The position numbers and the translations under genes are program-made. This document shows, one piece after another, positions 20,147 through 25,545 of a DNA stretch of 64,000 nucleotides. The DNA lies in the NCBI GenBank assembly GCA_039803925.1, contig JBDRZL010000001.1:62001-126000 (forward strand), read 5' to 3'. Source of the stretch: a candidate division WOR-3 bacterium (GTDB lineage: Bacteria; Hydrothermota; Hydrothermia; Hydrothermales; JAJRUZ01). Each line of letters begins with the position of its first letter. Within the stretch, counting starts at the first letter, position 1. The notes under the pieces were generated by a model. The model had not been told where the DNA came from and did no database searches. It was given only the letters and a program-made list of their open reading frames with translations.

Positions 20147-20563
20147 TTAAATATCAAGAATAAATCTTGTCTCGTAAAAATTCTCCTTTTTCTCAAGATA
20201 ATAATCATGATATGTAACTGCCTTTACATCCTTCTTTAATTTGTGTTTTTTATTATCAAATTTTTCACCCTTTAATTCAAGTAATATAATATTTCCTTTA
20301 ATATTTACTTTTACATCCCTCCAAATAAAACCTTCTGTATCAAAAAAATATAAAAGCTCTCTTAAAACATCAATTACAATAAAATCTTCTTCTTCAATTT
20401 TTACTTCAAAATTTTTTGTTTCTTTAATTTCGATAGTTTCTTTATCAACCATAACATTTGAAAGTATAAGGGAAATTTTTTTAATTAAAGACTCAATATC
20501 TTTTGCTCTTACTATAAAACCTATATCAGCAGTATGTTCTATTTCTCTAATTTCTTCTTCCAT
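20147..20563 (-). CDS. Archease
   Basis: The 138-residue product matches archease throughout: REIEHTADIGFIVRAKDIE at the start (metal-site Asp/His region), VLRELLYFFDTEGF near residue 64, KLKKDVKAVTYHDYYL near residue 107, and a terminal strand ending FILDI with the conserved Asp. Archease stimulates RtcB-type RNA ligases and helps multiple turnover and guanylylation. No rtcB is in this window. It overlaps the 3' end of the GGDEF gene by 25 bp, and moxR follows. Start ATG is at 20561-20563. Confidence 0.92.
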   Translation of the reverse strand: MEEEIREIEHTADIGFIVRAKDIESLIKKISLILSNVMVDKETIEIKETKNFEVKIEEEDFIVIDVLRELLYFFDTEGFIWRDVKVNIKGNIILLELKGEKFDNKKHKLKKDVKAVTYHDYYLEKKENFYETRFILDI

Positions 20564-23500
20564 TCCTGTAATAAAAGTTTGGCTGAACTTTTAACTGATA
20601 CATTTGGATCATTTGTTAATTTCTCAATAACCTCTATCCATTCAGGTAAGGGTTCAAAATTTTTTAATGCTCTTATTATAAGTATTTTTATTTCTGGTGG
20701 TTTTGATTTTTTAGGCGAAAGTGGGCTTTCTGGTTTTAAAGCCTCAATAAAAGCATTTCCAATTTCAAAATTTTCTTTAAAATTTGAAAGGGAATTTATA
20801 ACTTCTCTAACAATAGCTGGTTCTGGTTCAGGTTGCAGTTTACCTTTTTTTTCTATAAATTTAATAAGTATTTTTACAAGGGGTTCTAAATTGTATTTTC
20901 CTATTAGCTTTATAAGTTCTCTCTTAAGAGTTTCATTTACCTTTTCAAATAGATTTTCTATTATTTTAATTCCTTCATCCCTATATCCAATTATAATTAG
21001 TTCTATAGCTTTTAGTTTTATTAAATCTGATTTATGCTCAAGAAATCTTTTTAAAATGTTTAATTCAATTTTAATATTTTCCTCAATAGCTGTATCAAAA
21101 AATATTTCAAGTGTTTTAATAGGCATTTCTTTTTTTAATTCCTGGTATAAGAATTCTTCGGAACTTTTGATTTTCTCTTTAAACATTTCTTTCAAAAGAT
21201 CAGATAAAAGAGTTTCTTTTTCAACTTTTTCAAGTAAATAGGGTATTGAAATTCCTTCCATAATTCTGAAAAGAACTCTAATTCTAATTAATTCATCCTT
21301 TAACCCTCTTTTTTTCAAGTTAACATATTTATCAGTTAATTTATTCAAAAGCCTTTCTTCTACTTCTGGAAAATTAGTCTTTGTAACAATTTCAGCAAAA
21401 TCCTGAATTTCTTCAAATTCTCCTTTTTCAATTTTTTCTTCTATTTTATTTATAAATATTTTTAAATAACTTTTTATAATTTCTTCTTCTTTTTCTTTTT
21501 TTATGTATTTTGTTATTTCTCTTAAAATGTAATCACTATCATATTCTAAATATTTTTCAATAATTTCAAGTGTTTTTCTTTTTAATAAAGCACTTTGGTC
21601 AGAAAGGTTTTCTATTATTTTTTTTAAAATCTGTCTTTTTTCATCAATACTTAAACTTTCAAAAACCTCTTTTAAAATTTTTTGTACCTCATCTTTTAAT
21701 AAGTCTTCTTTCTCGTAGTTTAATATTTTTATTTTTTCTTCACTTAACAGTTTCTCCTTTTCAGGAATATATTTTATAATTTTTTTTATTTTTATAGCTT
21801 CTTCAACTTTACCCATTTTTTCTGCATCTATAAGTTCATTTTCAAGTGTTTCCCTTACCTTCAGTGCTTCTTTTGCTTCAAGCTTTGAAAATTCTTTTAA
21901 AATTTTTTCATCTTCAGGTATTTCATAAAATAAATTTTTTAAATCTTCGCTTTTAAGTTCTCTTATTAAATCTTTCAGTTTATAAATCCACTCCTTTCCA
22001 TCAGGAACATTTTTCATTAAATTCAGAACTTCCTTTATTTTTTTATCTATATCCTGGGGTATTTTTTTAATTGCTTCAAGCTCTTCTCCTAAGGCTATGT
22101 AAACTTTTTGATTTATAAATATATTTTTAAGTTCTTCAATTTCTTCAAGATTTTCTATACCTCCTTTGCTTTTTACTTCAGATGACCTTTTTGATAATAT
22201 TTGAAGTAAAGTTTTTAGTTCTTTTTCATCAACTTCATAAACAAAGGATATAGATTGAATTTCATATTCATTTAAAAGTTCAACTATTTTCTGTGCTGCA
22301 AGTAGCCTCTGGTTCGGGAATAGAACCCCGTCAACAATTAAATTCCCCTCATGGTTTGAAATTGTAAAAGATTTTCTTATTTTTAGAAGATTATTTAAAT
22401 TATTTTTAAGTTTTAAAATGTTATCAAAAACAATTTTTGAATTTTCAGGATAAATTCTATAGGATTCAAGTGCACCAAAAAGAGAGATTATATTTTCCGT
22501 TATGAAAGGGAAGTCACTTGAAGTAGGAGGAGGTGCTGTTGGTATTTCTTTTATTTTTAAAGTTTTTCTTCTTTCAAGGAGTTTTTTAATATCTTCTCTT
22601 TCTTCAAGCCGTTTAGCAAGCTGAGATAATTTAAGTGAAGCTTCCATTGCTTCTTTTGTTTCTCCTGCAAGTTTTGAGTGGAATGCTAAGGTTCCAATTA
22701 AAACTTCTTCGGGAATATCCTTTATTTTCTCAAATATTTCAATAACCCTTTTATGCATCTTTCTTTTTGAATCATCTGATAGTTTTTCATATATAAACAA
22801 TCTGAAATTTTCATTTAAAAAGGAATAGGAATCCCTGCCAGAGGGTTCAAGAATATGAAGATTTACTGCTTTGTCTGCAAGATCTATGAATCTTCCTGGA
22901 TTTATTCCTATATACTTGGAAGCCACATTTATTTTAAAAGATTTTCCAAGAGCCGAAAGAGATGCTATAAAATTTCTTAATTCTCTATCAAGAGATTTTA
23001 TTTTTTCATAATAAATTTCAGTTATGCTTTCAGGTTTTTTTTGTGGTAATTCATTCAAAATAAATTTGGAACCCTTTACACTAATAATGTTATTAAAAAT
23101 TGAATACCTTATACATTCTTCAATTAAATAGGGTACTCCTTTAGATATTTTAGATATCCATTCAACAAAATCCTCTCGTAATTCTAATTCAGGAATTATT
23201 TTTTTTATATATTCTATTAACACTTCCTTTGTTAGGGGTTGCAATTCTATTTCTATATTTCCCCATTCCACAGAATCTGTTCCAGCTGAAAGAATTGAGG
23301 GAAAATCCTTTGATATTACTTTAAAAAGTTCCTTTGAGTACTTATCAATATAGTCAATATCGTCAAGGATAATAAAATCAATCTCGCCTTTTTCAATTTT
23401 TTCTTTTATTATAAATGGAATATCTTCAAATCTTTTACCATAGTATTCACAAAGGGAAGAGAAGGGAACATCTTTAAGATCGAATTTAAATGTTATATTT

Positions 23501-24210
23501 ATAAATTTTTTACCTTCTTTTAGAAGTTCATTAATAAAAAAAGAAATTAATCTTGTTTTTCCTATTCCATGAATACCTTTTAAATGTATAGGTTTTTCTT
23601 TTTTCTTAATGAAATTCCTGAACATTTCAACTTCTTTCTCTCTATCAACAATTTCTTCAGGAGTTCCTTTTTCTTTAAGAAACTTTTCCTTTTTTATTTC
23701 TTCTTCTACTTCCGAATAAAATCTGTATTGGAATTTTCCCCTCTTTTTACAGTAATAAAGGGCTGAATCAGATTTTTCAAATAATTCCTGAATGGAAAAT
23801 CCGTCTTCGGGAAAATTTGATATTCCCATACTTGCCCCTAAATTAATTTTTCCTAAGCCATAATCTATTCCATAGGGGTAATTTCTAATTGTTTCCAAAA
23901 GTTTCTTGCTTTTTTCTTCTATAGTACTTCTATCTTTTATTTTTGTTATGATAATAAATTCATCACCTGCATATCGTAAAACTTCATTATTTTCTCCCTC
24001 AAATACCGCGTATAAAATTTTTGATATACCTTTTAGAACCTCGTCTCCTTTTAAATGTCCAAATTTATCATTAATTTCTTTAAAATTGTCAAGGTCAAAT
24101 ATGATAAAAGTTCCTTCTTTCCAATTTTTTAAAATTTCTTCCCCCTTTTCGAGGAGATATCTCCTGTTTTTTAATTCTGTTAGTTCATCTATATATATTT
24201 CAAAATTCAT
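20539..24210 (-). CDS. GGDEF domain, STAND-like ATPase and helical-repeat signalling protein
   Basis: The product is about 1223 residues when started at the ATG 24208-24210 (AAGG eight bases upstream); a TTG 48 bp earlier is less likely. Residues about 2-165 form a GGDEF domain with FDLDNFKEINDKFGH and the active-site variant RYAGDEF (81-85). AGDEF variants can still make c-di-GMP, and no RxxD inhibitory site is visible. Residues about 185-400 are a P-loop ATPase with GIHGIGKTR (Walker A, 212-220) and FIILDDIDYID (Walker B). The remaining 800 residues are charged alpha-helical, HEAT/TPR-like repeats. A nucleotide-gated switch controlling a cyclase is an inference from STAND proteins. Confidence 0.8.
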   Translation of the reverse strand: MNFEIYIDELTELKNRRYLLEKGEEILKNWKEGTFIIFDLDNFKEINDKFGHLKGDEVLKGISKILYAVFEGENNEVLRYAGDEFIIITKIKDRSTIEEKSKKLLETIRNYPYGIDYGLGKINLGASMGISNFPEDGFSIQELFEKSDSALYYCKKRGKFQYRFYSEVEEEIKKEKFLKEKGTPEEIVDREKEVEMFRNFIKKKEKPIHLKGIHGIGKTRLISFFINELLKEGKKFINITFKFDLKDVPFSSLCEYYGKRFEDIPFIIKEKIEKGEIDFIILDDIDYIDKYSKELFKVISKDFPSILSAGTDSVEWGNIEIELQPLTKEVLIEYIKKIIPELELREDFVEWISKISKGVPYLIEECIRYSIFNNIISVKGSKFILNELPQKKPESITEIYYEKIKSLDRELRNFIASLSALGKSFKINVASKYIGINPGRFIDLADKAVNLHILEPSGRDSYSFLNENFRLFIYEKLSDDSKRKMHKRVIEIFEKIKDIPEEVLIGTLAFHSKLAGETKEAMEASLKLSQLAKRLEEREDIKKLLERRKTLKIKEIPTAPPPTSSDFPFITENIISLFGALESYRIYPENSKIVFDNILKLKNNLNNLLKIRKSFTISNHEGNLIVDGVLFPNQRLLAAQKIVELLNEYEIQSISFVYEVDEKELKTLLQILSKRSSEVKSKGGIENLEEIEELKNIFINQKVYIALGEELEAIKKIPQDIDKKIKEVLNLMKNVPDGKEWIYKLKDLIRELKSEDLKNLFYEIPEDEKILKEFSKLEAKEALKVRETLENELIDAEKMGKVEEAIKIKKIIKYIPEKEKLLSEEKIKILNYEKEDLLKDEVQKILKEVFESLSIDEKRQILKKIIENLSDQSALLKRKTLEIIEKYLEYDSDYILREITKYIKKEKEEEIIKSYLKIFINKIEEKIEKGEFEEIQDFAEIVTKTNFPEVEERLLNKLTDKYVNLKKRGLKDELIRIRVLFRIMEGISIPYLLEKVEKETLLSDLLKEMFKEKIKSSEEFLYQELKKEMPIKTLEIFFDTAIEENIKIELNILKRFLEHKSDLIKLKAIELIIIGYRDEGIKIIENLFEKVNETLKRELIKLIGKYNLEPLVKILIKFIEKKGKLQPEPEPAIVREVINSLSNFKENFEIGNAFIEALKPESPLSPKKSKPPEIKILIIRALKNFEPLPEWIEVIEKLTNDPNVSVKSSAKLLLQEWKKKLEK

Positions 24211-24257: not shown

Positions 24258-24272
24258 AAGGTTCAATCCCTT
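24258..24272 (+). repeat. T-arm-like leader motif, copy 4
   Basis: AAGG (24258-24261), loop TTCAATC and CCTT (24269-24272) form a small hairpin whose seven-base loop fits the tRNA T-loop consensus TTCRANY. It lies between the divergent GGDEF and aminotransferase genes, 22 bp before the ATG at 24295, so it cannot be a terminator for either. Confidence 0.4.
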
Positions 24273-24294: not shown

Positions 24295-25545
24295 ATGATT
24301 CAAAAACTTTTAAATACTGAAATAGAGCTATTTTTAAATTCACTTACTAAGGAAGAGCTTGAAAATATTAAAGAAAATCATCTTGCCCCTAATTATAAAC
24401 CTTTTCCTGTATGGATAAAAAGAGGCTCTGGTTCAAGAGTTTATGATATAGATGGAAAGGAGTATCTTGATTTTATAGGTTGTTATTCAGCACTCTCACA
24501 TGGGCATCTCAATAGAAGAATAATTGAAAGAGCTAAAAAACAGATGGAAAGACTCACTTTAACAGGCAGGCATGTTATATATCCTGAGCTTGTTCTATTT
24601 GCTAAGGTTCTTGCTGAATATTCAGGTATGGAGATGGTTTTGCCTATGAATACTGGTGCTGAAGCAGTTGAAACTGCTCTTAAGACAGCTCGTAGATGGG
24701 GTTATAGAATTAAGAAAGTTCCCAAAGATAAGGCTGAGATAATAGTAATGGAGAGAAACTTTCATGGAAGAACAATAACAGTAATAAGTTTTTCAACAAA
24801 TGAAGAGTATAGAGATGGTTTTGGACCTTTTACCCCTGGATTTAAAATTGTCAAATTTGGTGATTTAAAAGAATTAAAAAAGAAAATTACAAAAAATACA
24901 GTTGCAGTTTTATTTGAACCCATTCAGGCAGAAGGCGGAGTTTATGTGCCCTATGATGGTTTTTTGAAAGATGTTCGGAAATTGTGCGATGAGGAAAATA
25001 TACTTATGATTCTTGATGAAATTCAAACAGGTATGGGTAGAACTGGTAAGCCTTTTGCCTATATGTGGGAAGGTGTAAAACCTGATTTGATAACAGTTGG
25101 AAAAGCAATAGGGGGTGGAATTATGCCTGTTTCAGCAGTTGCTGGAAAAAGAGAAATTCTATCTCTTATGGATCCTGGTTCTCATGGAAGCACTTTTGGG
25201 GGAAATCCTCTTGCCTGTGTGATTGGAATTGAATCAATTCTTGAAATGGAAAGGGAAAAACTCCCGGATCAGGCAAGAGAAAAAGGAGAATATTTAATGA
25301 AAAAATTAAAGGAAATTGATTCCAAAAAAATAAAAGAAATAAGGGGAAAGGGTCTTCTTATAGGTGTAGAAATAAATAAGGAATATGGAACAGGTAAAAA
25401 ATTCGCTGAAATACTTTTAAAACATGGAATAATAACAAAGGAAACTCATCTAATGACAGTCAGAATAACACCTCCCCTTACTATAACCTATGAGGAAATT
25501 GATGAAGGTATTGAAAGATTAAAAAAGGGTTTGGAAGAACTTTAA
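24295..25545 (+). CDS. rocD: Class III aminotransferase, ornithine aminotransferase-like
   Basis: The 416-residue PLP enzyme has the fold-type I subgroup III motifs MNTGAEAVETALKTARRW near residue 117, HGRT near 157, EPIQAEGGV near 207, LDEIQTGMGRTG near 240 with the PLP Asp, the PLP-binding Lys in TVGKAIGGG near 267, and GSTFGGNPLAC near 300. The GAEAVETALK phrase and overall pattern fit ornithine delta-aminotransferase, which yields glutamate semialdehyde. Acetylornithine or related omega-aminotransferases remain possible. It stands alone and plus-oriented, with no obvious Shine-Dalgarno box. Confidence 0.85.
   Translation: MIQKLLNTEIELFLNSLTKEELENIKENHLAPNYKPFPVWIKRGSGSRVYDIDGKEYLDFIGCYSALSHGHLNRRIIERAKKQMERLTLTGRHVIYPELVLFAKVLAEYSGMEMVLPMNTGAEAVETALKTARRWGYRIKKVPKDKAEIIVMERNFHGRTITVISFSTNEEYRDGFGPFTPGFKIVKFGDLKELKKKITKNTVAVLFEPIQAEGGVYVPYDGFLKDVRKLCDEENILMILDEIQTGMGRTGKPFAYMWEGVKPDLITVGKAIGGGIMPVSAVAGKREILSLMDPGSHGSTFGGNPLACVIGIESILEMEREKLPDQAREKGEYLMKKLKEIDSKKIKEIRGKGLLIGVEINKEYGTGKKFAEILLKHGIITKETHLMTVRITPPLTITYEEIDEGIERLKKGLEEL

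Follow-up and report, generated by a model that had tools for sequence, protein, structure and literature searches.

A candidate STAND-switched diguanylate cyclase carrying a YP-HEAT arm in a candidate division WOR-3 bacterium

The gene considered here lies in a window of 64,000 nucleotides, the whole stretch of DNA that was analysed, from a candidate division WOR-3 bacterium (assembly GCA_039803925.1, contig JBDRZL010000001.1, positions 62,001 to 126,000); positions given below are those of the window, and L, G and f numbers denote loci, genomes and families. Its product, P0001, joins on one chain a GGDEF domain, a P-loop ATPase of STAND type, an unnamed domain of about 140 residues that we call YP, a name coined here from a conserved tyrosine-proline stretch, and a long HEAT-like helical arm (Table 1).

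Domains of P0001 and the surrounding genes

Table 1. Features of the P0001 gene and its immediate neighbours
Feature	Positions	Strand	Residues	Basis
Whole gene, P0001	20539..24210	-	1223 aa	Single uninterrupted frame; ATG 24210, stop 20539-20541
GGDEF domain	23734..24195	-	6-159	PF00990, E 1.4e-29
AGDEF active-site motif	23956..23970	-	81-85	No RxxD upstream
STAND-type P-loop ATPase core (predicted)	23086..23649	-	about 188-375	Alignment with profile A1; weak Pfam ATPase matches
Walker A, GIHGIGKT	23554..23577	-	212-219	Motif reading
Walker B, FIILDDID, acidic pair	23353..23376	-	279-286	Motif reading
GxP motif, GVPYLIEE (GVP 358-360)	23116..23139	-	358-365	Alignment
Winged-helix-like region and arm (predicted)	22567..23085	-	about 376-548	Alignment with relatives extends to about residue 530-545
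YP domain	22117..22557	-	552-698	Profiles A3 and A4
HEAT-like helical arm (predicted)	20542..22095	-	about 706-1223	Single-sequence model mac5de878f023; hhalign
Neighbour, archease	20147..20563	-		PF01951, E 2.9e-32; overlaps the P0001 gene end by 25 bases
Neighbour, class III aminotransferase, divergent	24295..25545	+		PF00202, E 1.9e-120

P0001 scores well above the curated cut-offs for GGDEF (PF00990, 103.4 bits against 23.8; TIGR00254, 105.3 against 37.4), and the domain matches solved cyclases, the best being 4urs_A (E 4.9e-21). Across 61 aligned sequences in which GGDEF is joined to this ATPase (hereafter GGDEF-STAND), D39, N47, D56, R79, G82, D83 and K155 are invariant, the metal-binding aspartates thus being retained; E84 is glutamate in 57 of the 61, P0001 among them, and the position of residue 159, a lysine in P0001, holds lysine in 41 and arginine in 11. 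We take D39, N47, D56, D83, E84 and K155 to have the catalytic, metal-binding and substrate-binding roles. The motif begins with alanine, as AGDEF, in P0001 and in all four of its orthologues.

In the ATPase, P360 is present in all 61 sequences and G358 in 60; a GxP motif ahead of a winged helix is a defining feature of STAND ATPases. The distant orthologue L041 has NP where P0001 has GVP, so the motif is imperfect across the P0001 clade. Walker A is kept in every orthologue and Walker B in those of family f1. TIGR03903, a model of TOMM kinase/cyclase proteins, matches residues 281-532 (E 3.6e-05), and relatives that align with P0001 end to end match AAA_16 (up to 3e-28), TPR_MalT (up to 6e-27) and nSTAND3 (2.5e-09), as well as NACHT and NB-ARC. 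On account of these matches we assign the ATPase to the STAND/MalT (AAA_16) kind, with a winged helix predicted from the alignment. Two other GGDEF proteins in the set (L049, 2543-6247; L057, 1028-4711) have their only exact Walker A near residue 460 and an altered P-loop (GTGR, GSGR) near residue 200, a pattern that suggests two ATPase units in tandem.

Orthologues excepted, BLAST alignments of P0001 with its relatives stop near residue 490-620, and what follows is of another kind. No Pfam or NCBIfam model matches the YP domain of P0001, and a wide YP profile (A4) found weak, scattered matches only among solved structures (best E 0.0021). In our own sample, which comprised 147 genomes of the host's phylum together with Pseudomonadota (the phylum of L007, Glaciecola), a profile built from the five orthologous sequences (A3) matched 55 of the 147 genomes at E 0.01, and A4 matched 63 of them at 1e-4 and none of 299 Pseudomonadota genomes. 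The YP proteins found in this way are HEAT-repeat proteins of about 510-920 residues (HEAT_2, 2.5e-24 in L075 and 1.2e-20 in L077) and HD-domain proteins of about 455 residues (HD_5, 1.4e-29 in L081). The C-terminal half of P0001 aligns by hhalign with five free YP-HEAT proteins of 603-633 residues at 99.0% (E 7e-18, 568 columns), with two further free groups at 97.0 and 97.2%, and with a fourth group through the YP domain only (93.9% over 130 columns). Pfam finds no TPR tail in P0001, and hhalign of its C-terminal half to the TPR tail of the relatives gives 0.1%. The half is thus a complete copy of a free-standing YP-HEAT protein, set in place of that tail. Modelled from a single sequence, the arm is helical throughout beyond residue 720 or so (mean predicted local distance difference test [pLDDT] 60.1, predicted template modelling score 0.37). 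The model resembles many HEAT/ARM solenoids with Z up to 11.3, below the level of about 13 that caution sets for repeats; it may be taken to indicate the general arrangement of the fold only. A preliminary description of this DNA had named a GGDEF domain with an AGDEF active site and a STAND-like ATPase behind it, both of which stand; of the 800-residue HEAT/TPR-like scaffold that it placed after them, the HEAT-like C-terminal repeats remain, and the stretch resolves into several parts (an ATPase arm, YP and the HEAT-like arm) without TPR.

An AAGGT lies upstream of the ATG at 24210; a TTG at 24258 is a possible alternative start, giving a longer product, and is weaker. Beyond the archease gene come genes for AAA_3 (MoxR-type), NfeD and Band 7 proteins. 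G001, G002 and G003 retain this order; G004 does not, although it has an orthologue of P0001. A functional tie between P0001 and the archease-MoxR-NfeD-slipin genes was dropped for that reason. A role in defence was set aside as well, no PADLOC family matching P0001 at E up to 1. The host genome comprises 1.84 Mb in 29 contigs.

The fused clade and GGDEF-STAND proteins of the phylum

Because the same gene, coding for 1164-1247 residues, occurs in four other genomes (identity 95, 66, 60 and about 31%), the P0001 gene is not a product of chance. The full GGDEF-STAND-YP-HEAT form was found in only 5 of the 147 genomes, G000-G003 of family f1 and G004 of f2, and in a tree of the 61 aligned sequences the five form one clade with support of 0.999 on a branch of length 0.75. 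The ratio of nonsynonymous to synonymous substitution rates (dN/dS) against G001 is 0.09 in GGDEF and 0.14 in the ATPase, with further values of 0.05, 0.07 and, in the arm, 0.20. Given the five-genome clade and these low ratios, the parts of P0001 belong to one gene under purifying selection and are not a misassembly. As a separate observation, dS to G001 reaches 0.77 in the GGDEF part (23716-24210, compared with L038), against 0.11-0.21 elsewhere in the gene, as if that stretch had been exchanged by recombination in one lineage.

The layout was at first thought uncommon, and a survey with a profile of the GGDEF domain and ATPase together (A1, 569 positions) contradicts this for the phylum. 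A1 matches 126 of the 147 genomes at 1e-20, plain GGDEF proteins included, and near-full-length matches, which mark GGDEF-STAND proteins, occur in at least 57 of the 147 genomes and at least 16 families; with at most nine candidates per genome scored, a hand count gave at least 53 genomes with a single match running from position 10 or earlier to position 520 or later, and the four f1 genomes were added as two joined pieces. Among the matches listed, the reading frames are usually 1040-1110 residues long, and several genomes, such as G025, G022 and G119, hold many copies. Of eight relatives examined with Pfam, seven end in a TPR tail and one, the orthologue L041, does not. Outside the phylum, none of 398 Pseudomonadota genomes matched A1 at E 1e-62, a weak result obtained from three candidates per listed genome with no positive control, and none of 1339 matched plasmid records covered 80% of P0001 residues 1-550.

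The GGDEF-STAND-TPR proteins of the phylum, for which we found no published name, share with P0001 the GGDEF domain, the ATPase and the winged-helix-like region, aligned end to end, and differ in the tail and in the inhibitory site (I-site). The RxxD motif of that site is missing from all five members of the P0001 clade, as had been noted for P0001 from its sequence, and is present in 54 of 56 relatives that share its ATPase (50 by a script pattern, with L153, L155, L169 and L171 added from the alignment as motif variants; the 56 are the best match of each genome and not a random sample). Its absence had been taken as a sign that the ATPase controls the cyclase in place of its product, an argument that fails, because the ATPase is alike in groups with and without RxxD and cannot explain the loss. 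Three relatives (L047, L176 and L177) have AGDEF together with RxxD. The two relatives that lack RxxD, L178 and L179, both carry NGDAF, and cyclase function has probably been lost in some GGDEF-STAND members; in this set the P0001 clade is the sole group without an I-site in which the active site is kept.

Neighbourhoods of free-standing YP genes

Free-standing YP genes were surveyed in 64 stretches taken from the A3 matches, their open reading frames being scanned with profiles of our own. L094 was removed, since its YP match is weak and its sequence reads by eye, with no search, as GyrA; the four orthologues were added, L132 had no YP match in its reading frames, and L143, a duplicate of L075, went uncounted. 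The YP genes counted were 62 of HEAT type (defined by absence of GGDEF and HD, with HEAT verified by Pfam in few), 12 YP-HD and 4 GGDEF-STAND-YP. For 44 of the 62 HEAT-type genes, at least one partner coding for a class III cyclase-like, GGDEF or HD (HD-GYP) protein stands in the same run, all on one strand and broken by gaps of less than 200 bases. The partner is class III cyclase-like, small and with a zinc ribbon, in 25, its large counterpart in 18, GGDEF in 8 and HD in 12. Every one of the 12 YP-HD genes adjoins a HEAT-type YP gene. These cases are not independent of one another, because the cyclase profile was made from four of these neighbours and most of the cases come from family f18.

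By Pfam the large neighbours at L099, L113 and L140 are class III cyclase-AAA_16-TPR proteins. Small neighbours at L077, L078 and L111 exceed the Guanylate_cyc cut-off, that of L092 falls below it and that of L075 shows a zinc ribbon only; those of L087 and L089, candidates at one time, were rejected as ribulose-phosphate epimerases. A conserved run of a class III cyclase-STAND-TPR gene (about 1057 residues), a small zinc-ribbon cyclase-like gene (about 215) and a YP-HEAT gene (about 730) is seen in L099, L101, L102, L110-L115, L117, L118, L120, L124, L127, L134, L137 and L139. The YP-HD proteins, whose YP domain is N-terminal, are those of L081-L084, L090, L091, L106, L119, L129, L136, L138 and L140, with HEAT-type neighbours of 511-567 residues.

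A GMP synthase gene separates YP-HEAT from several GGDEF neighbours of a 681-residue type. This arrangement, in which the place of the GGDEF gene may be taken by the beginning of a similar one, is seen in L121, where Pfam identifies the GMP synthase, and in L125, L197, L198 and L201, where the synthase was called by equal length. Fifteen extra loci were chosen partly for a GGDEF-STAND gene on the same contig. In L187, L188 and L189, from three genera of family f14, a GGDEF-STAND-TPR gene, two further genes (LPG_synthase_TM and Phos_pyr_kin by Pfam, in L187 only) and, third downstream, a YP gene form one same-strand run; the YP gene of L187 is HEAT by Pfam, and the contig of L188 terminates within its YP gene. 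The host genome itself has one free YP-HEAT gene (879 residues), outside the window, with the small cyclase-like gene on one side and, on the other, a gene whose product carries AAA_16 and starts like a zinc ribbon.

A switched cyclase and its alternatives

STAND-switched class III cyclases are known, and mammalian soluble adenylyl cyclase is a relative of the class III cyclase-STAND type. The class III cyclase-AAA_16-TPR proteins of L099, L113 and L140 resemble P0001 in having an N-terminal nucleotide cyclase fold, a STAND ATPase and helical repeats, but their cyclase is not GGDEF, and YP-HEAT, fused in P0001, is for them a separate adjoining gene. The TOMM kinase/cyclase of TIGR03903 and a plasmid match annotated as an adenylate/guanylate cyclase domain protein belong to the same layout class. 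MalT is a STAND ATPase with GxP, a winged helix, C-terminal helical repeats and a DNA-binding effector; P0001 shares the ATPase and repeats of MalT and the STAND class, its effector being instead an N-terminal GGDEF domain. The class, as reportedly laid out by Leipe et al. in 2004, includes MalT. According to an excerpt of Kaur et al. 2020 (PMC7159879), nucleotide-signal domains, rarely GGDEF, are joined to NTP-dependent conflict systems; the components described there are those of vWA-MoxR/VMAP systems, in contrast to the GGDEF-STAND-HEAT of P0001.

In the general STAND scheme, a repeat arm senses, the state of bound ATP switches, and N-terminal effectors meet. Since a diguanylate cyclase works as a dimer, this scheme suits a GGDEF effector, and we hold with moderate confidence that P0001 is a cytoplasmic, STAND-switched diguanylate cyclase with a YP-HEAT adaptor on the same chain. 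At rest, the ADP-bound ATPase would hold the GGDEF domains at the N-terminus away from one another; binding of a ligand or partner by the C-terminal YP-HEAT arm would free the ATPase, and ATP binding would then lead to self-association, so that two GGDEF domains could come together and convert GTP to cyclic di-GMP (c-di-GMP). YP-HEAT would serve as the adaptor, having displaced the TPR sensor tail.

Several observations weigh against this proposal. P0001 falls below every Pfam ATPase cut-off (AAA_16, 17.9 against 32.6; nSTAND6, 15.7 against 27.7), and its HEAT_2 match of 18.0 bits is likewise below the cut-off of 27.7, the free relatives scoring 85.8, 74.0 and 70.9. For the GGDEF-ATPase half, modelling from a single sequence gave nothing usable (pLDDT 35). 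Eighteen of the 62 HEAT-type YP genes are without any partner of the kinds counted, and the cyclase-linked cases are phylogenetically clustered, mostly in family f18. Finally, that one and the same clade has AGDEF and has lost RxxD could mean an altered, sensor-like role.

This last point leads to the strongest of the alternatives, in which the GGDEF domain is inactive, binding GTP or nothing and dimerising or sensing on behalf of the ATPase, with YP-HEAT as an output that docks on another enzyme. The pairing of AGDEF with a missing RxxD in five of five clade members, when only 2 of the 56 relatives lack the site, and the long, well-supported branch both speak for it. Yet every catalytic position is retained under a dN/dS of 0.09, the motif is unbroken where the RxxD-less relatives have the broken NGDAF, and AGDEF is compatible with activity: VCA0965 of Vibrio cholerae, which has AGDEF like P0001 and, unlike it, RxxD, is active according to PMC3974145. 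We therefore regard an inactive domain as unlikely. Less likely again is a constitutive cyclase free of product inhibition, for which the ATPase and arm merely provide localisation. The absence of RxxD would permit it, and PMC10127611 describes YfiN as a cyclase without I-sites that is restrained by a partner; the Walker A kept in all orthologues, the Walker B kept in those of f1 and the ATPase dN/dS of 0.14 are, however, hard to reconcile with a mere tether. That the ATPase belongs to some other AAA+ clade, ORC/Cdc6-like or TniB-like, is very improbable: P0001 itself gives mixed and weak Pfam matches (NPHP3_N, AAA_14, AAA_22 and AAA_16), and its sole solved ATPase matches are chains of a human Cdc6 homologue (E 0.0021), but the relatives' STAND-family matches, the retained GxP and the match to the ATPase part of TIGR03903 point the other way, and no TniB family appears among its Pfam matches at E up to 1.

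Free YP-HEAT genes near cyclase, GGDEF and HD-GYP genes, set beside the fusion in P0001, make a Rosetta-stone argument for physical contact, which falls short of proof. More tentatively, we suggest that YP-HEAT could be a dedicated adaptor for nucleotide second messengers, one that throughout the phylum would couple STAND ATPase switches to HD-GYP phosphodiesterases and to cyclases of both the class III and the diguanylate kind, P0001 then being a natural one-chain version that would reveal which parts touch.

The host genome encodes 6 GGDEF, 1 EAL, 2 HD_5 and 2 MshEN domains and, of the two receptor families searched, PilZ and MshEN, no PilZ. One MshEN stretch translates to RLGSTLVELGYITEKQLVEVLAKQ, which is close to the c-di-GMP-binding motif given in an excerpt of PMC5013675. 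As MshEN domains are the only receptors found, c-di-GMP likely acts on MshEN-type ATPases of type IV pili or type II secretion.

Judged by title or the start of the abstract, no paper that we found describes GGDEF-STAND or YP-HEAT proteins. One paper turned up that lists STAND among its domains, and a review of c-di-GMP evolution (PMC10333796) contains neither TPR nor tetratricopeptide. A STAND-switched diguanylate cyclase is thus hardly described in the literature, and genes of this type are common in the phylum. The fusion also flags an unannotated module that occurs beside the makers and breakers of nucleotide messengers. Should YP-HEAT prove to be an adaptor, a testable function would follow for the many genes of its kind in the phylum, and P0001 may point to a signalling partner so far unnamed.

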